64,000 bases of DNA, taken from assembly GCF_003590775.1 (NCBI RefSeq), contig NZ_QYUM01000002.1:62001-126000 (forward strand), read 5' to 3'. Positions 11,155 through 63,930 of this stretch are shown one piece after another. The first letter of the stretch is position 1, and each line of letters starts with the position of its first letter. The notes under the pieces are model-generated. The model saw only the letters and a list, made by a program, of their open reading frames with translations, did no database searches and had not been told where the DNA came from. The position numbers and the translations under genes were made by a program. This DNA comes from Sphingomonas cavernae (lineage in GTDB: Bacteria; Pseudomonadota; Alphaproteobacteria; Sphingomonadales; Sphingomonadaceae).

Positions 11155-11877
11155 TCAGAAACGGCCCTGCAGCGAAAATACATATCCGTCCTGCGTCTGG
11201 CGGAATCCCGAAAGCAGAAGCTTGGGCCCCAGTGCAGGGTCGGCGGTCCGCACCGCAAGGTCGAACTCATAGCGCCCGTCCTCGAACAGTTTGATCGCCA
11301 GCCGCTCCATTCCCGATTGGCCCTGGAGAGGCAGCAGCAGCGCCCCGCCGTCGCAGCGCGCATTGCCGCCCAGCCCCTGACCGAGGTTGATTCCAGCAAT
11401 GTCGCCGGCGACAGTCGCGCGAACCCGACCTTCGGCATGGTCGCACTGGCCATCCTTGAAGCGCACGCTGACGTCGGACAGATCGAGCGTGTCGACAGGA
11501 AGCGGCGCGAACACTGCGGCCACGGGAATCGCCGCGGTCATATCGTCGATCCCGATGGTGTTGCGGCTCACGCCGAACGCTCCCTTCATCGGTGGAGCGC
11601 TTTCGTCGGTGCCTTCAAGATCGACGCGCGCGCGGCCGACCAGAAGCTGGATCGGAGAAAGCCGTGCCCCCAGATCGCCCAGTGGCGCATCGCCGAACCG
11701 GGCTTCGGTAAGCCGGCCCAGCCAGACGCTGCCTTCGGCCTTGCGCGCTGAAAGCCCCTGCTCATCGAGCGTGAACCAGTCGAGTGCGAGTCTCAACGGC
11801 AGCAGCGCGATCAACGCGATCAGGAACGCGCACAGAAAATAAAGGCCTCGTCCCAACGGCATCCGGATGCGCTTCAT
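11155..11877 (-). CDS. gspN: Type II secretion protein GspN
   Basis: A 240-residue inner-membrane protein with one N-terminal transmembrane helix (GLYFLCAFLIALIALLPLRLAL) and a periplasmic beta-rich domain, typical of GspN. GspN is an accessory T2SS component present in some lineages. It ends the gsp operon; its start overlaps gspM by four bases (ATGA). tRNA-His follows 60 bases downstream on the same strand. Confidence 0.85.
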   Translation of the reverse strand: MKRIRMPLGRGLYFLCAFLIALIALLPLRLALDWFTLDEQGLSARKAEGSVWLGRLTEARFGDAPLGDLGARLSPIQLLVGRARVDLEGTDESAPPMKGAFGVSRNTIGIDDMTAAIPVAAVFAPLPVDTLDLSDVSVRFKDGQCDHAEGRVRATVAGDIAGINLGQGLGGNARCDGGALLLPLQGQSGMERLAIKLFEDGRYEFDLAVRTADPALGPKLLLSGFRQTQDGYVFSLQGRF

Positions 11878-12350
11878 TGCCCGCGGCCCCTCAACGTCGC
11901 CTCGATGCTCAGCGTCCGGTCGCTATTGGCGCGCGCAACGAGCTTTTCGGGCACGATGCCGCGCCGCTCGAGATCGGTCAGCCATCCAAAAAAGGCGTTG
12001 GGGCGCGCGGAACCAATGGCAATCGTCACGCGGTCGCGTCCTTCCGGTTCGCCGCGGGTCAGCACGAAGCCAATCTCGGCGGCCGCCTGCCCCACCACCG
12101 TATCGATCTGCGCCGGCAGCGGCGGCGGCGCGCGCTTCTGATAGTCGCGCAACGCCTCCACCTTGGCCGCGACCCGCGCATGGTCGACCACCGCCAGACC
12201 ATGGTGTTCTCGCGCCGACGACACGCCATTGCCCACCCAGAGGATCAGCATCCACGCAAGGACGACGCCCATCAGCGCGAACATCACGAGCAACATCCGC
12301 TGCTCGCGCGTCGTGCGCAGCGTCCACCAGGCCTTGAACTTCTCGGTCAT
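11874..12350 (-). CDS. gspM: Type II secretion protein GspM
   Basis: A 158-residue protein with a short cytoplasmic N-terminus (MTEKFKAWWTLRTTREQRML), one transmembrane helix and a periplasmic ferredoxin-like domain. This is the standard GspM layout. GspM partners GspL in the assembly platform that couples the GspE ATPase to the inner membrane. It is coupled by ATGA overlaps to both gspL and gspN. Confidence 0.88.
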   Translation of the reverse strand: MTEKFKAWWTLRTTREQRMLLVMFALMGVVLAWMLILWVGNGVSSAREHHGLAVVDHARVAAKVEALRDYQKRAPPPLPAQIDTVVGQAAAEIGFVLTRGEPEGRDRVTIAIGSARPNAFFGWLTDLERRGIVPEKLVARANSDRTLSIEATLRGRGQ

Positions 12351-13465
12351 GGCAGCTTCACCGTCATCTCCACGATCTGGCGCCCTGCCGCCTGTTGCGG
12401 TGCGCTCGCCGTGCCATCGAAGCCATAGCGCTCGAGTTGGGCCTGGAACGCCGGGATGTCGCCGGGCGTCGCGGCGGCGATGCCGATCCGCAGCGTTCCA
12501 TCAATGCCGAAATCAAAGCTGGTCAGCTCGACATTGGGCACCGCGCGCACTGCCGAGAAAATCGCAGCCGTTGTCGCCGAGAAACCCGCGCCACCGCCGC
12601 GATAACCGGCAAGCCGGTCATCGAGCGCCTGGATAGCACCCTCGTCGCTCGTCGCATCGGGAACGACGGTACGTGCGAGGTTTGTTGTCCGCAGCTCGAG
12701 CGCATCGGCCGCGTAGTGATATTTGAGAATGAGCGCGACGTTGATCGCGAGCAGCACTCCGACGATCCCGATGCCGATCGCGGCCAGCCGTCGGATCAGT
12801 CCCCAATCGAGCGCCCAGCGGCGCCTGCGGGCGTAGTTTGCCTGACGCAAATTGATCGGCAGCGCCGAAAGCGCAGCGATCCATTCGGATCGGGCAGCCC
12901 CATTGGACAGCGTTTCAATCGGCGCATCACCCACGATCAGCGAAGTCAGCGCTTCGTCGTCGGCGAAGACGCTGCCTGGCCCCGCGACGATCGTTTCGCC
13001 CAATATGTCGGCCTTTACGAAGCCATTTTCGGGCCGCGAAAGTAACAGCGACGCGGGCACCAGCGCATCGGGATCGAAACCCGATGCCTGCGCCGCGCCG
13101 AGCCAGTGGGCGATACGCGCATGATCGACGGTGACGACGAGACGGTCGCCGCCTTCACGCTCCTCACCCACCGCGACGTGCAGCGAATCGAGCGGCGAGA
13201 TGCTGTTCTCCGATGCGAGGAGCCGCGCCGCCGCGCGTGCTTGCGCATCGGCCAGACCCGGCAGTTCGGCCCAGTTGACCGTGACGTCTGCGGCGGGCGC
13301 AATCGCGATGACGCGCTCCTCGGCGAGTTGCTTGTCGTCAGCGGGCCGAATCGCGACAAGATCATCGCCTTGTTCGACGATCGCGCCATCAGCCACGCGC
13401 AACCAGTGGACCGGCGCATCGGCATCGGGCAAGAATCGCAGGATCAGGAAGCGATCTTCGCTCAT
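12347..13465 (-). CDS. gspL: Type II secretion protein GspL
   Basis: A 372-residue bitopic protein with an actin-like cytoplasmic domain (residues about 1-220), a transmembrane helix (LAAIGIGIVGVLLAINVALIL) and a periplasmic ferredoxin-like domain. It recruits GspE to the membrane. ATG 13465 (MSEDRFLIL) was chosen over the in-frame codon at 13480 because it forms the ATGA overlap with the gspK stop, matching the other junctions in this operon. Confidence 0.88.
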   Translation of the reverse strand: MSEDRFLILRFLPDADAPVHWLRVADGAIVEQGDDLVAIRPADDKQLAEERVIAIAPAADVTVNWAELPGLADAQARAAARLLASENSISPLDSLHVAVGEEREGGDRLVVTVDHARIAHWLGAAQASGFDPDALVPASLLLSRPENGFVKADILGETIVAGPGSVFADDEALTSLIVGDAPIETLSNGAARSEWIAALSALPINLRQANYARRRRWALDWGLIRRLAAIGIGIVGVLLAINVALILKYHYAADALELRTTNLARTVVPDATSDEGAIQALDDRLAGYRGGGAGFSATTAAIFSAVRAVPNVELTSFDFGIDGTLRIGIAAATPGDIPAFQAQLERYGFDGTASAPQQAAGRQIVEMTVKLP

Positions 13466-14442
13466 GAAGGATCGCCCCATTGCCGGCTCACCAGTCGCGC
13501 CGGCTTCAACGCACCATCAATCAGGGCAGTCTCCTGCAATTCTGCGCTGCCCAACTCGATCGTGATGTCGAGCGCGAACCAGCGCGTCGTGAGTTTGGTC
13601 TGACTTTGCACTTCCTGCCCCGGGGTAAGCGCCTGGAGCGCCGGTCGCCTCCAGAAATCCACGAGGCTGCCATAGCCATCGGCGGGCCTTTCGGCGAGCA
13701 TTTTGCGTGCGGTCTGAACGTTGAGCTGTCCGGGTATCAGCATCGCGAACAACGGTGCCTGTTCGGGGAGCAGCGTGTTCACATTGATGGGCGAAAGCTC
13801 GCTGTTGGGCAGCGCGCACACCCAAGGCCGCAGCCGCGCATAAAGCTCGGGCGTAACCCCGGCCACCGCGCGCAGCTCGCTGACGTCATATAGCCGCGTA
13901 TTGGCCGCGAGATACGGGCTGGCGAGCCCCTGATAATAGGCATCCTCGGCGCCATCGCTACCTGGCACATCGTCGCTGTCGACCCAGTCGGCGAGCGAAG
14001 CCGCAACGCGGCGGGCAACATCGGGCCGTATCTCGATCGCCTCCATCAGCGCGACGAACTGCCCGATGCCCGTGGGGCTGGCGGCGAGTTCGGTTGCGGA
14101 CTGCCCACGCGAGACGCTGTTGAGGTTGAAACAATTGCCGCCATCGCGCACCCGCGCCTCGGCGATCCCTCCGGGAATGGGCAGGTTGGTGCGCTGCCCA
14201 TTCCAGCCGCCCGCAAGCGTCGTCTTGGCGGCATCGCGCTCGACAAGATCGGTAATCCGCATCAACGCCAGCGTTTCGGCGGCATGGCTGAACGCGCGCG
14301 CCTGATCCATTGCCGCACCATTGGCCGCCAGATGCGTTGAAAGGCGCAGCTTTTCGAGCGCGGCCGCCGCCAGAACCGCCATGACCGCCACCAGCAGCAA
14401 AACGCTCAGCAGCGCCGCACCCTCCTCGCCCCGACGCGGCAT
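13462..14442 (-). CDS. gspK: Minor pseudopilin GspK
   Basis: A 326-residue large minor pseudopilin that caps the pseudopilus. The prepilin-like leader is short (MPRRGEEG then AALLSVLLLVAVMAVLAAAA). The residue at mature position 5 is not Glu, as expected for GspK. A large globular domain follows, with DSDDVPGSDGAEDAYY resembling the known calcium-binding region. The start overlaps the gspJ stop as TGATG. Unlike its neighbours gspH, I and J, its leader has no repeat expansion. Confidence 0.93.
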   Translation of the reverse strand: MPRRGEEGAALLSVLLLVAVMAVLAAAALEKLRLSTHLAANGAAMDQARAFSHAAETLALMRITDLVERDAAKTTLAGGWNGQRTNLPIPGGIAEARVRDGGNCFNLNSVSRGQSATELAASPTGIGQFVALMEAIEIRPDVARRVAASLADWVDSDDVPGSDGAEDAYYQGLASPYLAANTRLYDVSELRAVAGVTPELYARLRPWVCALPNSELSPINVNTLLPEQAPLFAMLIPGQLNVQTARKMLAERPADGYGSLVDFWRRPALQALTPGQEVQSQTKLTTRWFALDITIELGSAELQETALIDGALKPARLVSRQWGDPS

Positions 14443-15137
14443 CAGTAGCTCGAGCCCACGAGGAAAAGTTGACGGATCTCGGCTCCATCGACGGGCTTCA
14501 CCACCAGTTCAACGGCATCGGGCATCGCCTCTGGCTGCGTTGCGTCCCATGCATCGCGCCATTCGTTGTCGACACGAAAGCGCACGCGCACCGCCTCGAC
14601 ATCGCTGAAGATCACGGCCGCGGGCAGTTCTTCACCGCCATCAAGCATCGCATAGCCGATGCGAAGCAGATTGCCGTTCTCGAACCGGTATTCGACGCGC
14701 TGCAGCGAGGCGCGTGCCGCGCCCGCACCGTTGCTCCAGCCCGAGCGGACGAAAGTCAGCAAGGGCGCCTCGGTGCCCGGCGGGGATGCCTGAAAGGCTG
14801 GAGTGCGATCGCCACGTGCATCGCGCGGCATACGCGGAGCTGCCTGGGCGAGATCGCCGGTCAGGACCGCGCCAAACCGGCGTATCTCGGCCATATCGGC
14901 CAGACGCTCCTTCGCGGCGTCCTGCGCCCGCACGCTGAAGGTCAGCAACGCCACGCCCGCTGCCGACAATATGCCGAAGATAAGCAGCGAAACCATCAGT
15001 TCGACAAGCGTGAAGCCGTGTTCGGCGGAACGCCTCACGAGCCCGAAGCCGTGTTCGGCGGAACGCCTCACGGGCGTGAAGCCGTGTTCGGCGGAACGCT
15101 TTGGGACCATGAAGCCGTGTTCGGCGGAACGCCTCAT
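14442..15137 (-). CDS. gspJ: Minor pseudopilin GspJ with four-fold repeated leader
   Basis: A 231-residue minor pseudopilin. The mature protein begins at F42, inside RRSAEHG-F-TLVELMVSLLIFGIL, with Glu5 present; the rest matches GspJ in length and position. The leader is 41 residues and consists of four copies of (R/K)RSAEHGF at an exact 11-residue period, with linkers MVP, TPV and GLV. The start codon at 15137 opens the first copy and overlaps the gspI stop as ATGA. Only the last copy precedes the hydrophobic helix, so only G41/F42 should be cleaved by prepilin peptidase. No prepilin peptidase gene lies in the window. Confidence 0.92.
   Translation of the reverse strand: MRRSAEHGFMVPKRSAEHGFTPVRRSAEHGFGLVRRSAEHGFTLVELMVSLLIFGILSAAGVALLTFSVRAQDAAKERLADMAEIRRFGAVLTGDLAQAAPRMPRDARGDRTPAFQASPPGTEAPLLTFVRSGWSNGAGAARASLQRVEYRFENGNLLRIGYAMLDGGEELPAAVIFSDVEAVRVRFRVDNEWRDAWDATQPEAMPDAVELVVKPVDGAEIRQLFLVGSSY
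15012..15137 (-). repeat. 33-bp tandem repeat, four units, gspJ leader
   Basis: Four units spaced exactly 33 bp (plus-strand GAAGCC starts at 15012, 15045, 15078 and 15111). The 18-base core gccgtgttcggcggaacg is identical in all four. Each unit encodes (R/K)RSAEHGF and three linker residues. The core contains the inverted repeat GTTC-N4-GAAC. Confidence 0.95.
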
Positions 15138-15586
15138 TTCACCTGCCTCACTATCGTGAGACCGGCCTGGTTCCGCCCGGCCATATCCAGCACCGCGATA
15201 TCGATGCGGACGATCCGCTGGTCGCCGGGACGCGTGGTGCGCCGCTGCCAGCGCCAGCGGTGGCCGGCATTTGCCTCCTCGCCACTCGTCTCGCCGAGCG
15301 CGGGCGCCATCGGGTCAGTGAGCGTTTCCACCGCAACATTCCGCGCGACGATCTGCGCGATGAGTTTCTGGTCGAGGTCAGCGGTGCTCGAAAGCGTCGC
15401 ACCCTCAAGCCGCAACAGCGCAAGTGCCGCAAGGCTGAACACCGCCAATGCAACAATCATCTCTATCAGCGTGAAGCCGTGTTCGGCGGAACGCCTTGGG
15501 GCCATGAAACCATGTTCGGCGGAACGCCTCGCGGGCCCGAAGCCGTGTTCGGCGACAACCGGCACGAAGCCTTTACGATCCGACAT
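15134..15586 (-). CDS. gspI: Minor pseudopilin GspI with repeated leader
   Basis: A 150-residue minor pseudopilin. The cleavage motif RRSAEHG-F-TLIEMIVALAVFSLAAL puts mature F1 at residue 38, with Glu5. The leader of 37 residues reads MSDRKGFVPVV, then AEHGF, then two further RRSAEHGF units at 11-residue spacing with linkers GPA and MAP. ATG 15586 overlaps the end of gspH by 14 bases. GspI with GspJ and GspK forms the pseudopilus tip. Confidence 0.92.
   Translation of the reverse strand: MSDRKGFVPVVAEHGFGPARRSAEHGFMAPRRSAEHGFTLIEMIVALAVFSLAALALLRLEGATLSSTADLDQKLIAQIVARNVAVETLTDPMAPALGETSGEEANAGHRWRWQRRTTRPGDQRIVRIDIAVLDMAGRNQAGLTIVRQVK
15473..15553 (-). repeat. 33-bp tandem repeat, three units, gspI leader
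   Basis: Units with plus-strand starts at 15473, 15506 and 15539, again 33 bp apart. The first carries the exact 18-base core, the second has one change within it (gaaacc and catg in place of gaagcc and cgtg), and the third is truncated after AEHGF (no RRS). Confidence 0.93.
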
Positions 15587-16103
15587 TGATCGTTCCGTCC
15601 TGCCCGATCGCGATTGCGATCTCCTCGCCCTCGCGACGCAAGGTTACCGTCGCTGGCTCGCTCGCCAGCCCCGTGGTGTCGAAGATGATCGTCTTGCGCG
15701 AATCGCGACCGATCGTGACGCGCGTGCCCTGCGGCCAGTCTGCGCGCGCGAGTGCGCGTTGCTGCATCGGTCGCCATTCGCCGCGGCGCCGTTCCTGAAA
15801 GCCGTAACCCAGGGGATCGACGGTCAGGCTCATCTCGCGCCCGTCAATCACAGCGCCGTCGCGCGCCACCTGAACACGCGCAGCGAAACGCTCGGCCTCA
15901 TCCATCAGGCGGCCGCGTGGATCGGGCATGGTCAGGATCACGACAGCCGACATCAGACCGACGATCGCGAGCACGATCATCAGTTCGACCAGCGTGAAGC
16001 CGTGTTCGGCGGAACGTCTCACGGGCGTGAAGCCGTGTTCGGCGGAACGCCTCACAAGCCTGAAGCCGTGTTCGGCCTTATCGCCAGTTGCCGAGATCCG
16101 CAT
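15573..16103 (-). CDS. gspH: Minor pseudopilin GspH with repeated leader
   Basis: A 176-residue pseudopilin. F36 is mature residue 1 in RRSAEHG-F-TLVELMIVLAIVGLM, with Glu5. The leader is 35 residues: MRISATGDK, AEHGF, then two RRSAEHGF units with linkers RLV and TPV. I chose ATG 16103 because a purine-rich GGGAGAG lies just upstream; it overlaps gspG by 26 bases. An in-frame codon at 16136 is a less likely start. A GspH-like globular domain follows. Confidence 0.9.
   Translation of the reverse strand: MRISATGDKAEHGFRLVRRSAEHGFTPVRRSAEHGFTLVELMIVLAIVGLMSAVVILTMPDPRGRLMDEAERFAARVQVARDGAVIDGREMSLTVDPLGYGFQERRRGEWRPMQQRALARADWPQGTRVTIGRDSRKTIIFDTTGLASEPATVTLRREGEEIAIAIGQDGTINVGS
15996..16076 (-). 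repeat. 33-bp tandem repeat, three units, gspH leader
   Basis: Units with plus-strand starts at 15996, 16029 and 16062 (33-bp spacing). Two carry the exact 18-base core; the one nearest the start codon retains only AEHGF. A related single copy without expansion (gaagccgtgttcg) is at 16477 in gspG. Confidence 0.93.
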
Positions 16104-16560
16104 TCTCTCCCTCGCCGCCCTCGGCGCCGTCGGCACCCAGAGAAAAGACGTCGAACGTGCCGTTTCGTCCGGGAACCGTATAGAGATACGGACGTCCCCA
16201 GGGATCGTCGGGCAAGCGCTTGACGTAGCCGCCGCGACGATAGCGATCGGGCTGCGCCAGCGACGCCGGTGGCTGGACGAGCGCGCGCAGACCGTCCGAT
16301 GCGGTCGGATAGGTCAGGTTGTCGAGCCGGTACATCTCGATCGCCTGTTCGAGCAGCGCGATGTCGGCCTCGGCCTTCTTGCCCATCGCCTTGTCCTGGC
16401 TCGGCAATACGTTGATGACGACGATGGTGGTGAGCAGGCCGATGATCACGATCACCACCATGAGCTCGACCAGCGTGAAGCCGTGTTCGCGCTTGCGTCC
16501 GCGCCTTGCCCCCTCGGGCGCCTTTTCAGGCGTTTCTTGGATGAAAATGTCTGTAATCAT
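16078..16560 (-). CDS. gspG: Major pseudopilin GspG
   Basis: A 160-residue major pseudopilin that forms the T2SS pseudopilus shaft. KREHG-F-TLVELMVVIVIIGLL gives cleavage after G27, with Glu5 in the mature protein. The C-terminal half shows the conserved TDGLRALV/DPWGRPYLY-type segments and an acidic calcium-loop region (GADGAEGGEGENAD). ATG 16560 is preferred over TTG 16572 because GAGG lies about seven bases upstream. Its leader holds one EHGF only. Confidence 0.95.
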   Translation of the reverse strand: MITDIFIQETPEKAPEGARRGRKREHGFTLVELMVVIVIIGLLTTIVVINVLPSQDKAMGKKAEADIALLEQAIEMYRLDNLTYPTASDGLRALVQPPASLAQPDRYRRGGYVKRLPDDPWGRPYLYTVPGRNGTFDVFSLGADGAEGGEGENADLGNWR

Positions 16561-16568
16561 TTGGAACC

Positions 16569-17795
16569 TCAAATACCGGCAAGCGATTGGAGCTGGAGGA
16601 TGGGAAGCAGGATCGACAATACGATAAGCGCCACGATACCACCCATCACGACAATGATCAGCGGTTCGAGCAGCGACAGCGCCGCCGTGGTGAAACCGTC
16701 GAATTCGCGCTCTAGATAATCTGCGGCGCGTTCGAGCGTCAGATCGAGCTTGCCCGCGGCTTCACCGCTGGCGGCGAGGTAAACGAGCAGCGGCGGAAAA
16801 ACATTGGCGCGCTTGAGCGCGACAGACAGGCTGCCGCCACCGCGGATCGCCTCGACAATGTCTTCGGACGCGGTACGCAGCGCGCGGTTGTGGATCGTCG
16901 GCGTGGTGAGCGCGAGCCCCTCCAGCAGTGGCAGGCGGCTCGCCACCATCGTCGCCAGCGTGCGCGACATGCGCGCCGCGTGGAGGTCGCGGATCAAGCG
17001 GCCGATCAGCGGAATGCGCAGCAGCGAGCGATCGAAGCGCAGCCGGATCGCGGGATCGCTGAGCGCGCGCCATGCGACAACGCCAAGCAAAGCGATCAAC
17101 GCCAGCAACAGCCACCACCAGTTGACCAGAAAATCGGAAATCCCGATGACGATGCGGGTCAGCAGCGGAAGCGCCTGCCCCACCGTGTCGAACTGCTCGA
17201 CCACCTTGGGCACGACGAACACCATGAGCGCGATCACGACGAACACCGCGACGATCGCGAGCACGACGGGATAGGCCATTGCGCTCAACACCTTGCCACG
17301 CACCTGTGCCTGCCGCTCGAGCAGGTCGGCAAGCCGCTCGAGGATCGTATCGAGCGTGCCGGAGCTTTCACCCGCCGAAACCATCGCACGGTAGAGCGGC
17401 GGGAAGCTTTTGGGTTCGCGTGCCATCGCCTCGGACAGCCGCCGTCCCTCGACCACCGCGGCATGCACCGTCTGGAGGATCGTGCGGACATGCACCTGCT
17501 CGCTCTGGCGCGAAATCGTGCGCAGCGATTCCTCGAGCGGCGTCACCTGAACGAGAGTCGCGAGCTGGCGCGTGAAGAGCGTAAGCTGCTTGGGGCTCAG
17601 CTTCTTGCGCGCAAAGGCCCTGCCCGAGAGCAGCGACGGCGCTTGCTGCGCCTGCCCGGTCCCGGGCTCGATCCGCACGACGTAGAAGCGCCGCTGGTCG
17701 AGCCGCGCACGCGCGTCCTCGACGCTCGGCGCGGCGACGGTCCCCCGCCGCTCGCGCCCGCTGGTGTCGAGCGCCAGATAGTCCCAGTCAGGCAT
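16569..17795 (-). CDS. gspF: Type II secretion inner-membrane protein GspF
   Basis: A 408-residue polytopic platform protein. It begins MPDWDYLALDTSGRERRGTV and contains two T2SF domains (about residues 70-190 and 270-390), each followed by hydrophobic helices. Motifs such as AMVSAGESSGTLDTIL and YLAASGEAAGKLDLTLERAA are typical. It interacts with GspE and GspL. It overlaps gspE by eight bases. Confidence 0.95.
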   Translation of the reverse strand: MPDWDYLALDTSGRERRGTVAAPSVEDARARLDQRRFYVVRIEPGTGQAQQAPSLLSGRAFARKKLSPKQLTLFTRQLATLVQVTPLEESLRTISRQSEQVHVRTILQTVHAAVVEGRRLSEAMAREPKSFPPLYRAMVSAGESSGTLDTILERLADLLERQAQVRGKVLSAMAYPVVLAIVAVFVVIALMVFVVPKVVEQFDTVGQALPLLTRIVIGISDFLVNWWWLLLALIALLGVVAWRALSDPAIRLRFDRSLLRIPLIGRLIRDLHAARMSRTLATMVASRLPLLEGLALTTPTIHNRALRTASEDIVEAIRGGGSLSVALKRANVFPPLLVYLAASGEAAGKLDLTLERAADYLEREFDGFTTAALSLLEPLIIVVMGGIVALIVLSILLPILQLQSLAGI

Positions 17796-19344
17796 CGACC
17801 GCTTCGCGACGCGATATCCGGACCGCCTCCTCGGGCGTGGTCAGCCCCTCGCGCACGAGCTTGCGCGCGGCCGATCCGAGATTGGGGTGATTGAGAAAGG
17901 CGTGGCGCGCGATGATCGCCTCGTCGCCGCCGTCGTTGATGAGGCGGCGGATGGTCTCGTCGATGCGGATCGCCTCGAACACGCCGATCCGGCCCTTGAA
18001 GCCGGTGTGGTTGCAATTGTCGCAGCCGACGGGCTCGTAGATCACCGTGCCCGGATCGAAGCCGAGCAGCGAGCTGACCGATCCCGACGCCTGCACAGGA
18101 CGGCGGCAATCGGGGCAAAGCCGCCGAACGAGGCGCTGCGCAATCACGGCGCGCAATGTCGAGGCAAGCAGGAAGGGCTCGATCCGCATGTCACGCATAC
18201 GCGTGATCGCGCCGACCGCGTCGTTGGTGTGGACCGTCGACAGCACGAGGTGGCCGGTGAGCGACGCCTGCACCGCGATCTCGGCGGTCTCGCGGTCGCG
18301 GATTTCGCCGACCATGACGACATCGGGATCCTGACGAAGGATTGCGCGCAGCCCCGCGGCGAAGGTCAGCCCGACCTTGGCGTTGACCTGCGTCTGCCCG
18401 ACACCCTCGATCGCATATTCGACAGGATCCTCGACGGTCAAGATATTGCGCGTGCCGTCGTTGAGCAGGCGCAAGCCGGCATAGAGCGTGGTCGTCTTGC
18501 CCGAACCGGTCGGCCCGGTGACGAGAATAATACCATTGGGCTCGGCCAGTGCTTCGCGCAGCAACGCGTTGGTTTCTTCGGACATGCCAAGCACGTCGAG
18601 CGTGATCCCGGCATTTTCCTTGTCGAGAATGCGTAGCACCACGCGCTCGCCGGCGCGGCTGGGCAACGTCGAGACGCGGACGTCGAGCAGCTTGCCGCCC
18701 AAGGTCAGTCCGATGCGCCCGTCCTGTGGCACCCGCCGCTCGGCGATGTCGAGCCGCGCCATGACCTTGATGCGGCTGACGACGACGGGCGCGACGTGCG
18801 GCGGCATGCGCAGCGTTTCGCGCAATACGCCGTCGATGCGCATGCGGACGATCAGCCCGGTTTCATAGGGCTCGATATGGATGTCGGACACGCCCTGCCG
18901 CGCGGCATCGGCGATGATGCCATTGATCAGCCGGATCGCGGGCGCGTCGTCGGCCGTGTCGAGCAGGTCGTCCGCGGTGGGCAAATCGGTCGCGAGAAGG
19001 TCGAGATCGTCGCCCAGTCCCAGCGAACCCGCCGCCATGGCCGCCGCCTCACCACCCAGTGCGTAACGTTCGGACAGCAGCGTGTCGAACGCCGACGGCG
19101 TGACGAACTCGACGGCAAATGGCTGGCCCAGCCAGCGTCGAACCTCAAGCAACGCACGCGGATCAGCACCCTCACGCATGGCGATGCCGAAACGGCCCTG
19201 CTCGTCCTTCTCCTTCAATACCACGCCGAACTTGCGGGCGAAGCCATAGGGTATGTTGACGATCAGGACGGGGCTGTGCGCCCCTTCGGGCGGGAGCGTT
19301 TCGGCCGCAGGCTCGGCAGTCGTCTCTCCGCGACGAATCTTCAT
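17788..19344 (-). CDS. gspE: Type II secretion ATPase GspE
   Basis: A 518-residue cytoplasmic ATPase that drives pseudopilus assembly. Walker A GPTGSGKT is at residues 277-284, an Asp box lies at ILTVEDPVEY, Walker B is in DPDVVMVGEIRDRETAE, and the His box is HLVLSTVHTND. The tetracysteine zinc motif of the GspE/PilB family is complete (C410, C413, C441, C444). The N1E region is short. The start overlaps the gspD stop as ATGA. Confidence 0.96.
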   Translation of the reverse strand: MKIRRGETTAEPAAETLPPEGAHSPVLIVNIPYGFARKFGVVLKEKDEQGRFGIAMREGADPRALLEVRRWLGQPFAVEFVTPSAFDTLLSERYALGGEAAAMAAGSLGLGDDLDLLATDLPTADDLLDTADDAPAIRLINGIIADAARQGVSDIHIEPYETGLIVRMRIDGVLRETLRMPPHVAPVVVSRIKVMARLDIAERRVPQDGRIGLTLGGKLLDVRVSTLPSRAGERVVLRILDKENAGITLDVLGMSEETNALLREALAEPNGIILVTGPTGSGKTTTLYAGLRLLNDGTRNILTVEDPVEYAIEGVGQTQVNAKVGLTFAAGLRAILRQDPDVVMVGEIRDRETAEIAVQASLTGHLVLSTVHTNDAVGAITRMRDMRIEPFLLASTLRAVIAQRLVRRLCPDCRRPVQASGSVSSLLGFDPGTVIYEPVGCDNCNHTGFKGRIGVFEAIRIDETIRRLINDGGDEAIIARHAFLNHPNLGSAARKLVREGLTTPEEAVRISRREAVDA

Positions 19345-21545
19345 TGTGGCGCCTCACTGACTGGGACTTCAACGGGCCTGATCGTCTGAGTCGAGCTGCG
19401 CTGACGGATCTCGCCCGGAGCGGGTTCGGGTTCGGCAGCCGCTGGTGCAGGCAATGCAGGCACGGACGCTGGCTGCCTCTGCTCGACGGGAATCGGCGGC
19501 GACATGTTGAGATAGTCGCGCACCAGTTCGTCGAGCGTGGGCTCACGATCAGGCCGTGCGAGAAGCTGCTCGCGCCGCGCATAGCCATAACGCTGCTCGG
19601 TGATCGCGCGCGCCTCAGAGGCGCTGCGGACGATCGTCGGACGGATGAAGATCATCAGGTTGGTCTTGCTGCGCTGGCGTGCCTTGGCACGGAACAGCGC
19701 GCCGATTCCGGGGAGGTCGCCCAGAAACGGAATTTTCTCGATGGTACGGCGTTCATTGTCATCGAGCAGGCCGCCCAACGCCACGATCTCGCCATCGTCG
19801 ACGGTGATCGTCGTCTCGATCTCGCGCTTGTTGAGGATCAGCTCGTTGAAATCATCCGAAACGGGACCTGCGATCGAGCTGACTTCCTGACGCAGGAACA
19901 GCTTGATCGCGCCGCCCGAGTTGATCTGGGGTTTCACTTCGAGCTGGATGCCCACATTCTGGCGCTGGATCGTGCGGAACGCGTTGTCGAAATTGTCGCT
20001 GAGCGCTTCGCCCGTCGACACCGGAATTTCCTGCCCCACGAGGATCTTCGCTTCCTTGTTGTCGAGCGTGTAGAGCCAGGGTGTCGACAGGATGTTGGAC
20101 TTGTTGTCGGATTTCACCGCGTTGATGATGGCGCCGAAAATGCCGTCCTCTCCGATCTTGGTAGCAATGCCGGCAATGCCGCCGCTCGCACTGAGCACCT
20201 CCTGCAACGCCGCCTGTTCGAGGTCGCTGAGCCCCGAATCGTCGTCGTCGGTGTCGTCGTCATTCTTTTTAAGCTCGCGCTCTGCGACCGCGGCGCCCAA
20301 GACGCCGATGCGCGGCGCGACGTTGGAATAGTTGGTAATTCCGAAGGGCAGATTGCTGCCCGGCTTGCCCCCGAACAGGAACTGGACGCCTAGCTGTTTT
20401 GCCGCGATGTCTGACATCTCGACGATGATCGCCTCGACCAGCACCTGTTCGCGGCGCGTGTCGAGCTGGCGGACCACTTCGCCCAATTGGCGCTGCACGT
20501 CAGCGGGCGCGGATATGATGATCGCATTGGCGCCTTCATACCGGGTCACGATCGCCGCCCCCCTGCCGGGAGTGCCCAGCGGATTGACCCCCGTCGACAC
20601 CGGCATCGACACGGGGATGGCCATGGCGTTGCCGTTGCCATTCCCGTTGCCGCCACCGCCCGACGCCGCGGCCGGCGTGGGCATGGTCGGCTGTTGCCCG
20701 ATGAGCTGTTGAAGCACGGGAAGCAACAGCGCTGCATCGGCATGTTCGAGCCAGACGACTCGGATTTCGGTGCCGCTCGCCGCTCGTACGTCGAGGTCAC
20801 GTGCGATCTCGACCAGTCGCGCAACGGTCGAAGGATCGCCCCTGAGCGCGATCGAGTTGCTGCTGTCGATAGGCACGATGGTGGCTGCGGGTCCGCGGCC
20901 CGGCGCGCCCTCGGCTCCCGCCACCCCAGCGCCGACAAGTTGCTGCAGCGAAGCAGCGATCTCGCGCGCGCCCGCATTCTTCAGCGGCACGACCGTGGTT
21001 GACGCGCTGTCCCTGTCGATCTGGTTCACGAGCTGGCGGATACGCCGGACATTGTCGGCAAAGTCCGCCACGACGATCGAATTGCCGCTGCGGTTGGCGG
21101 TGACCGAGCCCTCCTTGCTGACGAGCGGACGTAAGGTCTCGACTGCCGAAGTCGCATCGATCGATTTCAACCGGAAGACTTCGGTGACGAAGGCATTCTG
21201 CGCACCGCCGCGAGTGCCGACGCGTCCGGGCTGCGAGGCCGCGGTGTCGGCGGGCTGGACGCGAAACGCCCCACCCGCGGTCGGTACTGCGACGAGACCA
21301 TTGGCGCGTAGCGTGGAGAGGAACACCTCGAAATATTCGGAACGCGAGAGCGGCCGGTCGGTCACCACCGACACCTTCCCCTGCACCCGCTGGTCGATAA
21401 TGAACGTGCGTCCGGTGACACGCGCCGCGTCCTGAATGAACGCGCGGATATCGGCATCGCGGACATTCAGCGTGTGTTGTGCGGCCAGTGGCTGGGCCAC
21501 GATCAGCGCAAGGGCCGTGGCGGCACCGGTCAGGAATTTTTTCAT
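19341..21545 (-). CDS. gspD: Type II secretion outer-membrane secretin GspD
   Basis: A 734-residue secretin. It has a signal peptide (MKKFLTGAATALALIVAQPLAAQ), an N0 domain (LNVRDADIRAFIQDAARVTGRTF), N1-N3 repeats with a Gly/Asn-rich spacer around residue 310 (GGGGNGNGNGNAM), and a C-terminal secretin domain with the VxxxPxLGxxP-type region (IEKIPFLGDLPGIGALF). An acidic insert (DDDTDDDDSG) lies in the middle. No lipobox is present and no pilotin gene is seen nearby. The start overlaps the gspC stop as TAATG. Confidence 0.96.
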   Translation of the reverse strand: MKKFLTGAATALALIVAQPLAAQHTLNVRDADIRAFIQDAARVTGRTFIIDQRVQGKVSVVTDRPLSRSEYFEVFLSTLRANGLVAVPTAGGAFRVQPADTAASQPGRVGTRGGAQNAFVTEVFRLKSIDATSAVETLRPLVSKEGSVTANRSGNSIVVADFADNVRRIRQLVNQIDRDSASTTVVPLKNAGAREIAASLQQLVGAGVAGAEGAPGRGPAATIVPIDSSNSIALRGDPSTVARLVEIARDLDVRAASGTEIRVVWLEHADAALLLPVLQQLIGQQPTMPTPAAASGGGGNGNGNGNAMAIPVSMPVSTGVNPLGTPGRGAAIVTRYEGANAIIISAPADVQRQLGEVVRQLDTRREQVLVEAIIVEMSDIAAKQLGVQFLFGGKPGSNLPFGITNYSNVAPRIGVLGAAVAERELKKNDDDTDDDDSGLSDLEQAALQEVLSASGGIAGIATKIGEDGIFGAIINAVKSDNKSNILSTPWLYTLDNKEAKILVGQEIPVSTGEALSDNFDNAFRTIQRQNVGIQLEVKPQINSGGAIKLFLRQEVSSIAGPVSDDFNELILNKREIETTITVDDGEIVALGGLLDDNERRTIEKIPFLGDLPGIGALFRAKARQRSKTNLMIFIRPTIVRSASEARAITEQRYGYARREQLLARPDREPTLDELVRDYLNMSPPIPVEQRQPASVPALPAPAAAEPEPAPGEIRQRSSTQTIRPVEVPVSEAPQ

Positions 21546-22372
21546 TATCTCGCTATCGCAATGGCAATGGGAATGACTTCGGCGCCGCGTTCGACGGTGA
21601 CCGAAAGGGTGGAGCCGGGCCGCGCCGCCGCCGAAAGCCGCGTCGCGTCGTCGGGCGATCCGATGGGCTGCCCGTTGATGGCGACCAGGATGTCGCCGTC
21701 GCGGAAACCCGCCGAACGGAATGCGGTTCCATCGCCGCCCGAACGGACGACGAGGCCGGTGATACGGCCGCCTTCGGTGCGCGGCAGGAACTGGATGCCC
21801 TGGCGGATCTGATCGACGCTGACGGGTGCACCGCCAGAGGCGTCGAGCGTGGAGTCGGTCGCAACGCCGGGCGCGATCTCGGCCGCCTGCGGGGCTGCGA
21901 CAGATTGGTCGATATAGAGCTGCTCGATCGCACCGCCGCGATCGATGCTGACGCTGTCGAACGCCACCGATTTCAGGATCACGCCGGGCAGAATCTCGTC
22001 GCCCACTGCAAAGCTGGTCTGCACGCCGTCAGGGCCGGCAATGATCGCCGATCCGCGCCCCGACACCTCATCAAGGCGTGTACCGAAAAGCGTCAGTTGA
22101 AGCGAGGTCACGACCGCCGTCCCCGAATCCTGCAGCCGGAAGAAGGGATCGAAACTGCGGAAAAGCTCGACGCGATTGGCCACCGCGCCCGCCGCTCGAT
22201 CCTGCAATCGCCAGGTGCCGAGTGGATTCACGGGGGTAACGATCGTCCACACCAGCCGTGCGCAAAGCGCCGCGAGCACCGCGAGGAGCACGAGTTCTGC
22301 AACGCTGTACGCGCTGTAGCGCGGCAGGCGCCGCAACAGCCGCTTGGCTCTGCCATCAAGACTAAGACGCAA
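21545..22372 (-). CDS. gspC: Type II secretion protein GspC
   Basis: A 275-residue bitopic protein with a short cytoplasmic N-terminus, a transmembrane helix (VAELVLLAVLAALCARLVW), a periplasmic HR domain and a C-terminal PDZ-like domain (VVRSGGDGTAFRSAGFRDGDILVAINGQPIGSPDDA). It links the inner-membrane platform to GspD and may select substrates. The start is TTG 22372 with GGGGAG about seven bases upstream. It is the first gene of the gsp operon, divergent from the 2OG oxygenase gene across 175 bases. Confidence 0.92.
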   Translation of the reverse strand: MRLSLDGRAKRLLRRLPRYSAYSVAELVLLAVLAALCARLVWTIVTPVNPLGTWRLQDRAAGAVANRVELFRSFDPFFRLQDSGTAVVTSLQLTLFGTRLDEVSGRGSAIIAGPDGVQTSFAVGDEILPGVILKSVAFDSVSIDRGGAIEQLYIDQSVAAPQAAEIAPGVATDSTLDASGGAPVSVDQIRQGIQFLPRTEGGRITGLVVRSGGDGTAFRSAGFRDGDILVAINGQPIGSPDDATRLSAAARPGSTLSVTVERGAEVIPIAIAIAR

Positions 22373-63850: not shown

Positions 63851-63930
63851 CCGTAACCCCGCGTGCGTCGATGTGCGTTGACGTAACTCCGCGTAACTCC
63901 GCGTAACTCCGCGTAACTCCACGTAATTCA
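63851..63930. repeat. 10-bp tandem repeat (gcgtaactcc), about five clear units
   Basis: Units start at 63881, 63891, 63901, 63911 and 63921; the middle three are identical. Three weaker units (from 63851) keep the same 10-base phase. TGTACCGTC occurs as a direct repeat at 63833 and 63934, and TTTCATGTTCT (63817) is inverted as AGAACATGAAA (63947), framing the array. Confidence 0.85.

Follow-up and report, generated by a model that had tools for sequence, protein, structure and literature searches.

In the type II secretion system (T2SS) operon of Sphingomonas cavernae, the leader peptides of three adjacent minor pseudopilins, GspJ, GspI and GspH, carry tandem copies of a 33-nucleotide (nt) unit that repeats the prepilin cleavage junction in frame. 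The operon lies in a 64,000-nt stretch of contig NZ_QYUM01000002.1 (positions 62,001 to 126,000, forward strand; assembly GCF_003590775.1, 5 contigs), which we call the window and whose positions are used throughout. We consider it probable that the unit is a hairpin-prone coding minisatellite situated at the prepilin junction, which has spread by conversion from leader to leader and is tolerated since the prepilin peptidase removes its product. As far as sequence can tell, the element has a defined unit structure, varies in copy number between species and is restricted to pseudopilin leaders.

Tandem units in the leaders of GspJ, GspI and GspH

Each unit encodes (R)RSAEHGF plus three residues, and the units follow one another at an exact period of 33 nt. 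A first-pass annotation made from the letters alone had reported four, three and three copies of AEHGF in gspJ, gspI and gspH; the sequence, the open reading frames (ORFs) and Tandem Repeats Finder (TRF) all agree with these numbers. With a slash marking the cleavage junction, the proteins start with MRRSAEHGFMVPKRSAEHGFTPVRRSAEHGFGLVRRSAEHG/FTLVEL (GspJ, four copies), MSDRKGFVPVVAEHGFGPARRSAEHGFMAPRRSAEHG/FTLIEM (GspI, three copies plus one KGF) and MRISATGDKAEHGFRLVRRSAEHGFTPVRRSAEHG/FTLVEL (GspH, three copies). The gspJ, gspI and gspH arrays received TRF scores of 190, 122 and 144, the top three of 19 rows for the whole window. An 18-base core that had been attributed to seven copies, GAAGCCGTGTTCGGCGGA, has exactly seven plus-strand matches in the window, at 15012, 15045, 15078, 15111, 15473, 15996 and 16029. 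When both strands of the whole genome were searched for a 19-base core with up to two mismatches, nine matches were obtained, every one at the gsp locus. Repetition of an 18-mer at +33 nt was seen at 30 positions in the 64 kb (the first 15012-15014, the last 15997-15999), and among periods of 20 to 60 only period 20 gave any other recurrence (two). None of 500 dinucleotide shuffles of 14900-16200 yielded even one 12-mer repeated at +33. The window arrays are far beyond chance.

Only the final copy had been said to precede TLVEL or TLIEM. This is borne out by the prepilin domain model TIGR02532, which has one passing stretch in each protein, at the last copy (GspJ 40-61, GspI 36-58 and GspH 34-56); in gspJ this is the unit at 15003-15035, whose Gly-Phe sits before TLVEL. 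The proteins thus show the mark of a class III prepilin leader, a G/F(T/S)LxE junction before a hydrophobic helix. As also described earlier, the ORF translations give gspG a single unexpanded EHG/F with no array, and gspK an EEG/A with no unit. The KGF of gspI is possibly the original cleavage junction of that gene.

Conservation of the unit as a DNA palindrome

Codon usage was compared in units picked by their peptide only, with the mature parts in the same loci as reference. Arg was encoded by CGT in 91% of last units and 94% of upstream units, versus 10% in mature parts; the corresponding values were 95%, 96% and 14% for Ser as TCC, 97%, 99% and 33% for Ala as GCC, and 99%, 88% and 39% for Glu as GAA. 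The unit is conserved as DNA, its codons being nearly fixed across genera against local usage. To the earlier description we add that conservation applies to a palindrome in the DNA and not to a peptide motif alone: the unit forms an imperfect palindrome, GGCGU-UCC-GCCG-AACA-CGGC-UUC-ACGCC, which over its 30 nt folds at -14.2 kcal/mol with a z score of -3.5.

SAQQG, a common variant of SAEHG, alters both bases of the loop-adjacent stem pair (GCCG..CGGC to GCCC..GGGC). At this pair, 12/17, the 210 units examined had G-C in 173, C-G in 21, G-T in 7 and other combinations in 9 (148, 20, 7 and 9 among the 184 distinct units); the unit sets for the stem-pair and codon counts include locus L194, which overlaps L136. 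Pair 12/17 had the highest mutual information among core column pairs (0.317; next, 0.166), and its pairing was reached by 0/500 shuffles in either set, last or upstream units. In genome G141, the gspH array of L136 carries RRFAEQGF, RRFAEHGF and RRFAQHGF consecutively. Since both half-way forms between AEHG and AQQG stand in one array, the paired change may pass via intermediates or via template-switch correction; template switching is a described route to compensatory stem change (PMC8794818). A scan of 13000-18000 with Rfam detected no family at gathering score.

Copy number and occupancy among relatives

Units were counted in a genus set of five genomes wherever at least 18 of 24 bases matched. 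The window genome has three units in gspH, three in gspI and four in gspJ (H3 I3 J4), against H2 I2 J3 in G001, H1 I4 J3 in G002 and H3 I0 J4 in G003; genus-mate G004 has plain leaders, with no unit except one weak gspJ match. G003 is the closest relative, and its gspI, which is empty and reads MSDRESG/FTLIEM beside arrays in gspJ and gspH, provides an empty-site comparison for the window gspI. The tandem 33-bp amplification that had been proposed is supported by these differences in copy number among genus-mates, and in the comparison of leaders across related genomes both unit number and gene set vary, even within the genus.

The larger sample of loci was not random, having been retrieved by GspG similarity or by presence of the core. 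Among 80 named loci found by GspG similarity, those of Sphingobium and Sphingomonas have units in differing combinations of gspG, gspH, gspI and gspJ. Unlike the window gspG, gspG of other genera can hold arrays, and no units were seen in the Xanthomonas and Brevundimonas loci of the compared set. In all, 109 unit-bearing leaders from 52 loci had one unit (48 leaders), two (25), three (21), four (11), five (3) or six (1). Because the 18-of-24 threshold also yields single "units" in ordinary leaders (Stenotrophomonas L050, the gspJ of G004 and the window gspG), it is safer to count only arrays with at least two units.

Turnover was scored on a quick tree of mature GspG, GspI and GspJ, with 26 open forks. 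The 106 loci were reduced to 81 with all three genes and, after removal of 4 duplicates, to 77; the 25 loci dropped because a gene was missing or unrecognised include some that hold arrays (L024, L088, L139, L151, L152, L155 and L156). Across the 50 scored rows of the Sphingomonas-Sphingobium clade, 24 of which have an array in some gsp gene, the state "two or more units" must have changed at least 8 times in gspG, 11 in gspH, 6 in gspI and 11 in gspJ. Judged from these sequences, array occupancy changes fast between relatives, and the unit has the properties of a coding minisatellite, in-frame tandem units whose copy number varies between relatives.

Genome G141 contains 27 exact cores, and its gsp locus is found on two contigs (C53, holding L136, and C84, holding L194). 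These overlap over 1753 nt at 99.7% and disagree on array length (gspG, 4 versus at least 7; gspJ, 9 versus 5). Since both contigs end at arrays, the discrepancy may be an assembly effect, and we did not take it as proof of within-strain copy-number variation; the set has one genome per species. Separately, two contigs of one genome, Sphingobium sp. AP50 (L052 and L053), bear gsp loci with identical mature gspG DNA, indicating that the locus is duplicated or was assembled twice.

Distribution within and beyond the family

A 23-nt core, matched exactly save for three free positions, was found in 25 of 397 Sphingomonadaceae genomes, belonging to 13 of 96 genera, and the reversed control of this pattern had 0 matches in the same 397. 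The figure of 25/397 is a lower bound, as it counts exact cores only; its denominator is the 397 family genomes, whether or not they bear a T2SS. In a class-level sample of 385 genomes, searched with one mismatch, 2 matched: the S. cavernae genome itself and G477, from outside the family. The latter match, a single site not in a pilin, was rejected as a pilin unit.

Nine genomes were searched with up to two mismatches, and all sites with none or one lay within the gsp cluster. The 46 matches outside gsp were all two-mismatch sites and equalled the 46 of the reversed control, so that a dispersed mobile element is not supported; for the S. cavernae genome alone, two-mismatch matches outside gsp numbered 9 versus 3 for the control. 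No copies of the unit were found in a phage collection or in IMG/VR viral contigs, and none in plasmids besides one marginal 30-nt match in Caballeronia (E value, 9e-3). Occurrence of the core in 25 of 397 genomes, together with its restriction to gsp, makes the unit neither a dispersed repeat nor the oddity of one strain.

Exchange between paralogous leaders

Between genomes, the cores of last units were as similar within a gene (0.851) as between genes (0.852), a difference reached by 126/200 label permutations, and within one genome the value was 0.876, which only 1/200 permutations reached. Upstream units likewise carried a clear same-genome signal (0/200 permutations). Over mature nt 24-60 of 24 array-bearing genomes, in contrast, the same gene of other genomes gave 0.814, while other genes gave 0.527 between genomes and 0.529 within the same genome. 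The contrast between leader and mature part suggests that exchange takes place in the leader and first few codons alone. In genome G272 (L140), gspH and gspJ are identical at 60/60 bases before the junction Gly codon and at 19/20 from the Gly codon onward, an identity that reads as a conversion tract. The homogenisation among neighbouring leaders inferred in the first-pass annotation thus holds up.

An older Gly one period upstream

Of 96 unit-bearing leaders, 47 have a Gly exactly 11 residues ahead of the Gly in their first unit, versus 0 to 13 leaders at ten neighbouring offsets. The residue after this Gly is F, L, V or M in 37 leaders (F in 32 of these 37), and the Gly often lies within plain leader, as in DERG/F, PAERG/F and REAG/F. 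The pattern suggests entry directly behind the Gly-Phe codons, at GGCTTC^ACG, with the old site left as a fossil and a new one supplied. As for the window, the first gspJ unit itself starts the leader, no G-F precedes the units of gspH, and the KGF in MSDRKGF of gspI is two residues off; owing to its nine-residue spacing, it was excluded from the fossil count.

Probable removal of the leader and tolerance of the arrays

Prepilin leaders vary in length and stay in the cytoplasm until the peptidase removes them, according to PMC10191384, and a match to the prepilin peptidase family was present in 8/8 genomes tested. In the predicted structure of GspJ, built on a 23-sequence alignment, residues 1-40 had block means of 51-57 in the predicted local distance difference test (pLDDT) and no secondary structure, whereas most of the mature part was confidently folded, with a helix at 44-97. 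The nonsynonymous-to-synonymous (N/S) ratio was 2.21 in upstream units and 2.02 in last units, versus 2.77 expected; by this measure, amino acid change in upstream units appears to be close to neutral. The peptidase would cut at the last junction only, leaving the mature protein unchanged.

The leaders of other loci hold other repeat-like peptides, of the FDKLRAN, WVPAFAGTR and PSTSSGRT types. In addition, a palindrome that we name "REP-like" for the purposes of this report, TCCCGCGAAAGCGGGAATC, has 68 copies at up to one mismatch in the S. cavernae genome (G000), 34 per strand, and appears, translated in frame as SRESGNP, in the leaders of GspG from G001 and G002 (L103 and L104). Start codons within the units, GTG or TTG at the edge of each, were considered and dropped on inspection because the spacer codons vary.

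Proposed mechanism and alternatives

In the mechanism that we favour, the unit is a hairpin-forming 33-nt segment, a core CGTTCCGCCGAACACGGCTTCAC plus a variable spacer. It would enter or duplicate right behind the Gly-Phe codons, at the GGCTTC^ACG common to gspG, gspH, gspI and gspJ, thereby displacing the old Gly-Phe upstream and supplying a new in-frame RRSAEHG/F junction. Slippage or unequal recombination, perhaps aided by the hairpin, would then add whole units to the arrays or remove them, and the leaders of the four adjacent paralogues would overwrite one another by gene conversion. Gain would be tolerated because the leader is disordered, cytoplasmic and discarded, a cut at the last junction giving the same mature protein. 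The sequences themselves show conservation at the DNA level, homogenisation within genomes and, in roughly half of the leaders, an older Gly lying one period ahead; the recombination route, the role of the hairpin, cutting at the last site alone and the lack of advantage to the cell are what we infer from them. A bolder form of the proposal, which we regard as possible and rather doubtful, is that of a selfish 33-nt palindrome that enters only at the prepilin peptidase site, always rebuilds it and has its peptide excised everywhere. Such an element would parallel introns and inteins at the level of protein, the host peptidase serving as its eraser, and would have spread between four pseudopilin genes and between genera.

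Several observations weigh against the minisatellite interpretation. The upstream Gly at exact spacing is missing from 49 of 96 leaders and from all three array-bearing leaders of the window, and of the 37 leaders mentioned above, five come from near-identical Sphingomonas relatives (L094, L095, L096, L098 and L101), while in another (L136) a contig end interrupts the unit. For the bare 24-nt core, the z score of folding is only -1.5 to -1.6, and the whole gspJ array, at -1.95 as RNA and -0.64 as DNA, is not unusually stable. In the outer stem, only two of ten tests exceed shuffles (pair 2/27 in last units, 0/500; pair 4/25 in upstream units, 5/500). Upstream units keep a weak gene signal (10/200 permutations), the quick tree with its open forks underlies the turnover counts, and the N/S test is biased because units are recognised by their G and F. 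Moreover, near-identical DNA in 13 genera is not what one would expect of a purely neutral repeat; it calls for some constraint or for lateral spread, and we do not choose between them.

A first alternative is a function of the RNA: a unit hairpin in the mRNA near the starts of gspG, gspH, gspI and gspJ might tune translation or transcript stability, with stem compensation under selection. The z score of the 30-nt hairpin, the paired change from G-C to C-G in 21/210 units, the two outer pairs that exceed shuffles, the nearly fixed synonymous codons across genera and the position of the units next to overlapping start codons would all fit. We nevertheless find this improbable, as units are erratically present among close relatives, neither the bare core nor the full array is unusually stable, and no Rfam family was found in 13000-18000. 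Paired stem changes can also arise by template switching without selection (PMC8794818), and both half-changed intermediates occur in the one G141 gspH array. Selection might instead act on the peptide, a repeated basic RRSAEHGF leader serving, for example, to dock the peptidase at several sites or as a spacer in the cytoplasm that times pseudopilus assembly. The upstream copies, however, are not followed by the TLxE and hydrophobic segment found after the last copy, relatives have the same genes without arrays, and unrelated repeat peptides such as SRESGNP also occur in leaders; the near-neutral amino acid change of upstream units, in the biased test, and the predicted lack of structure in the GspJ leader point the same way. 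A peptide function is in our judgement unlikely, even though the units are in frame, mostly keep their basic residues and G-F, and occur in a set where 8/8 genomes match the prepilin peptidase family.

A further alternative is a dedicated mobile micro-element with its own recombinase targeting the GGCTTCACG junction, which would account for near-identical DNA in 13 of 96 genera, for the patchy distribution and for the precise position relative to the older Gly in about half of the leaders. Such an element is very unlikely, given that exact or one-mismatch copies were absent outside gsp in nine genomes and that the phage collection and IMG/VR gave none, with the single marginal 30-nt match among plasmids, in searches aimed at the unit and not at a recombinase; the choice of target could reflect short homology at the junction that the genes share. 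Assembly artefact, a worry raised at first pass, has hardly any probability left: although the two G141 contigs, which overlap over 1753 nt at 99.7% identity, do differ in gspG and gspJ copy number, many independent assemblies, among them ones of 1 and 2 contigs (G097 and G060), contain arrays whose units differ in sequence.

The gsp operon in the window

The T2SS operon, gspC, D, E, F, G, H, I, J, K and L, is on the minus strand and was delineated from the ORFs and an NCBIfam profile search of the window (Table 1). GspG, GspH, GspI and GspJ belong to their classes by family models above the curated cut-offs, and GspC matches its own model below the curated cut-off. The start ATG of gspH was placed at 16103, within the 3' end of gspG. 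No NCBIfam model matched the ORFs at 11874-12350 and 11155-11877, in the places of gspM and gspN. An antisense ORF of 584 codons (14469-16223, plus strand), which crosses gspJ, gspI and gspH including the arrays, is probably a by-product of base composition. At 63882-63926, TRF reports a 10-nt tandem repeat, CGTAACTCCG, of 4.5 copies with 97% match.

Table 1. Features of the gsp operon and its leader arrays (window positions)
Feature	Position	Strand	Remarks
gspJ leader array	15003..15134	-	four 33-nt units: 15102-15134, 15069-15101, 15036-15068, 15003-15035
gspI leader array	15464..15562	-	three 33-nt units: 15530-15562 (degenerate), 15497-15529, 15464-15496
gspH leader array	15987..16085	-	three units: 16053-16085 (degenerate), 16020-16052, 15987-16019
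Lys-Gly-Phe of gspI (MSDRKGF)	15566..15574	-	Gly nine, not eleven, residues ahead of the first unit's Gly
gspJ, minor pseudopilin	14442..15137	-	TIGR01711 above cut-off
gspI, minor pseudopilin	15134..15586	-	TIGR01707 above cut-off
gspH, minor pseudopilin	15573..16103	-	TIGR01708 above cut-off
gspG, major pseudopilin	16078..16560	-	TIGR01710 above cut-off
gspK	13462..14442	-	NF037980 above cut-off
gspF, gspE, gspD, gspC	16569..22372	-	operon members, NCBIfam
gspL	12347..13480	-	NCBIfam

Significance and comparison with known systems

Among the titles and abstract openings retrieved from open-licence PMC articles, we found no description of repeated junctions within one prepilin leader. The first-pass annotation likewise knew of no account of such leader repeats. 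The arrays have turned out not to be peculiar to the S. cavernae genome, occurring patchily across the family. One candidate for related work, PMC9765573 on phage resistance, is unrelated, the repeat term standing in its reference list. The arrays show how a DNA repeat could persist in working genes if its product is always trimmed, and they test, by natural variation, what portion of a prepilin leader matters. They also make it testable whether compensatory change in a coding palindrome arises via RNA function or via template switching in replication. On the practical side, it is easy to misjudge where the pseudopilins of these bacteria start and how long their leaders are, and the draft assembly of G141, at least, breaks inside the arrays.

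Coding minisatellites, or variable-number tandem repeats, are in-frame tandem repeats whose copy number changes by whole units. The gsp unit differs from them in that up to four neighbouring genes have it in common, its DNA core extends across genera, and it recreates a processing site, roughly half of the leaders having an older Gly ahead of the units. Rickettsia palindromic elements are palindromic DNA tolerated in frame in protein genes; they are longer than the gsp unit and are spread through many unrelated genes, whereas the gsp unit was found only in pseudopilin leaders. REP and RAYT elements have many dispersed extragenic copies, of a kind that the gsp unit lacks in the S. cavernae genome and in the nine genomes searched. 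The REP-like TCCCGCGAAAGCGGGAATC resembles the gsp unit as a palindromic repeat that also lands in gspG leaders and differs in being dispersed through G000, whereas the RRSAEHGF unit is confined to gsp.

At the protein level, the leaders resemble class III signal peptides as described in PMC10191384, hydrophilic leaders ending in Gly, here then followed by Phe and a hydrophobic helix; they differ in carrying several repeated junctions. The nearest published kind that we found is PARCEL, a tandem palindromic coding repeat with 25-residue units and conserved hydrophobic positions in ORFs without assigned function (PMC2996958). Both PARCEL and the gsp unit, itself an imperfect palindrome, are coding repeats in tandem that show dyad symmetry, a copy number that varies and a patchy distribution, as well as suspected lateral spread and intragenomic shuffling. 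They differ in that the gsp unit has 11 residues in place of the 25-residue motif, is confined to the leaders of four named paralogues and rebuilds a protease site.

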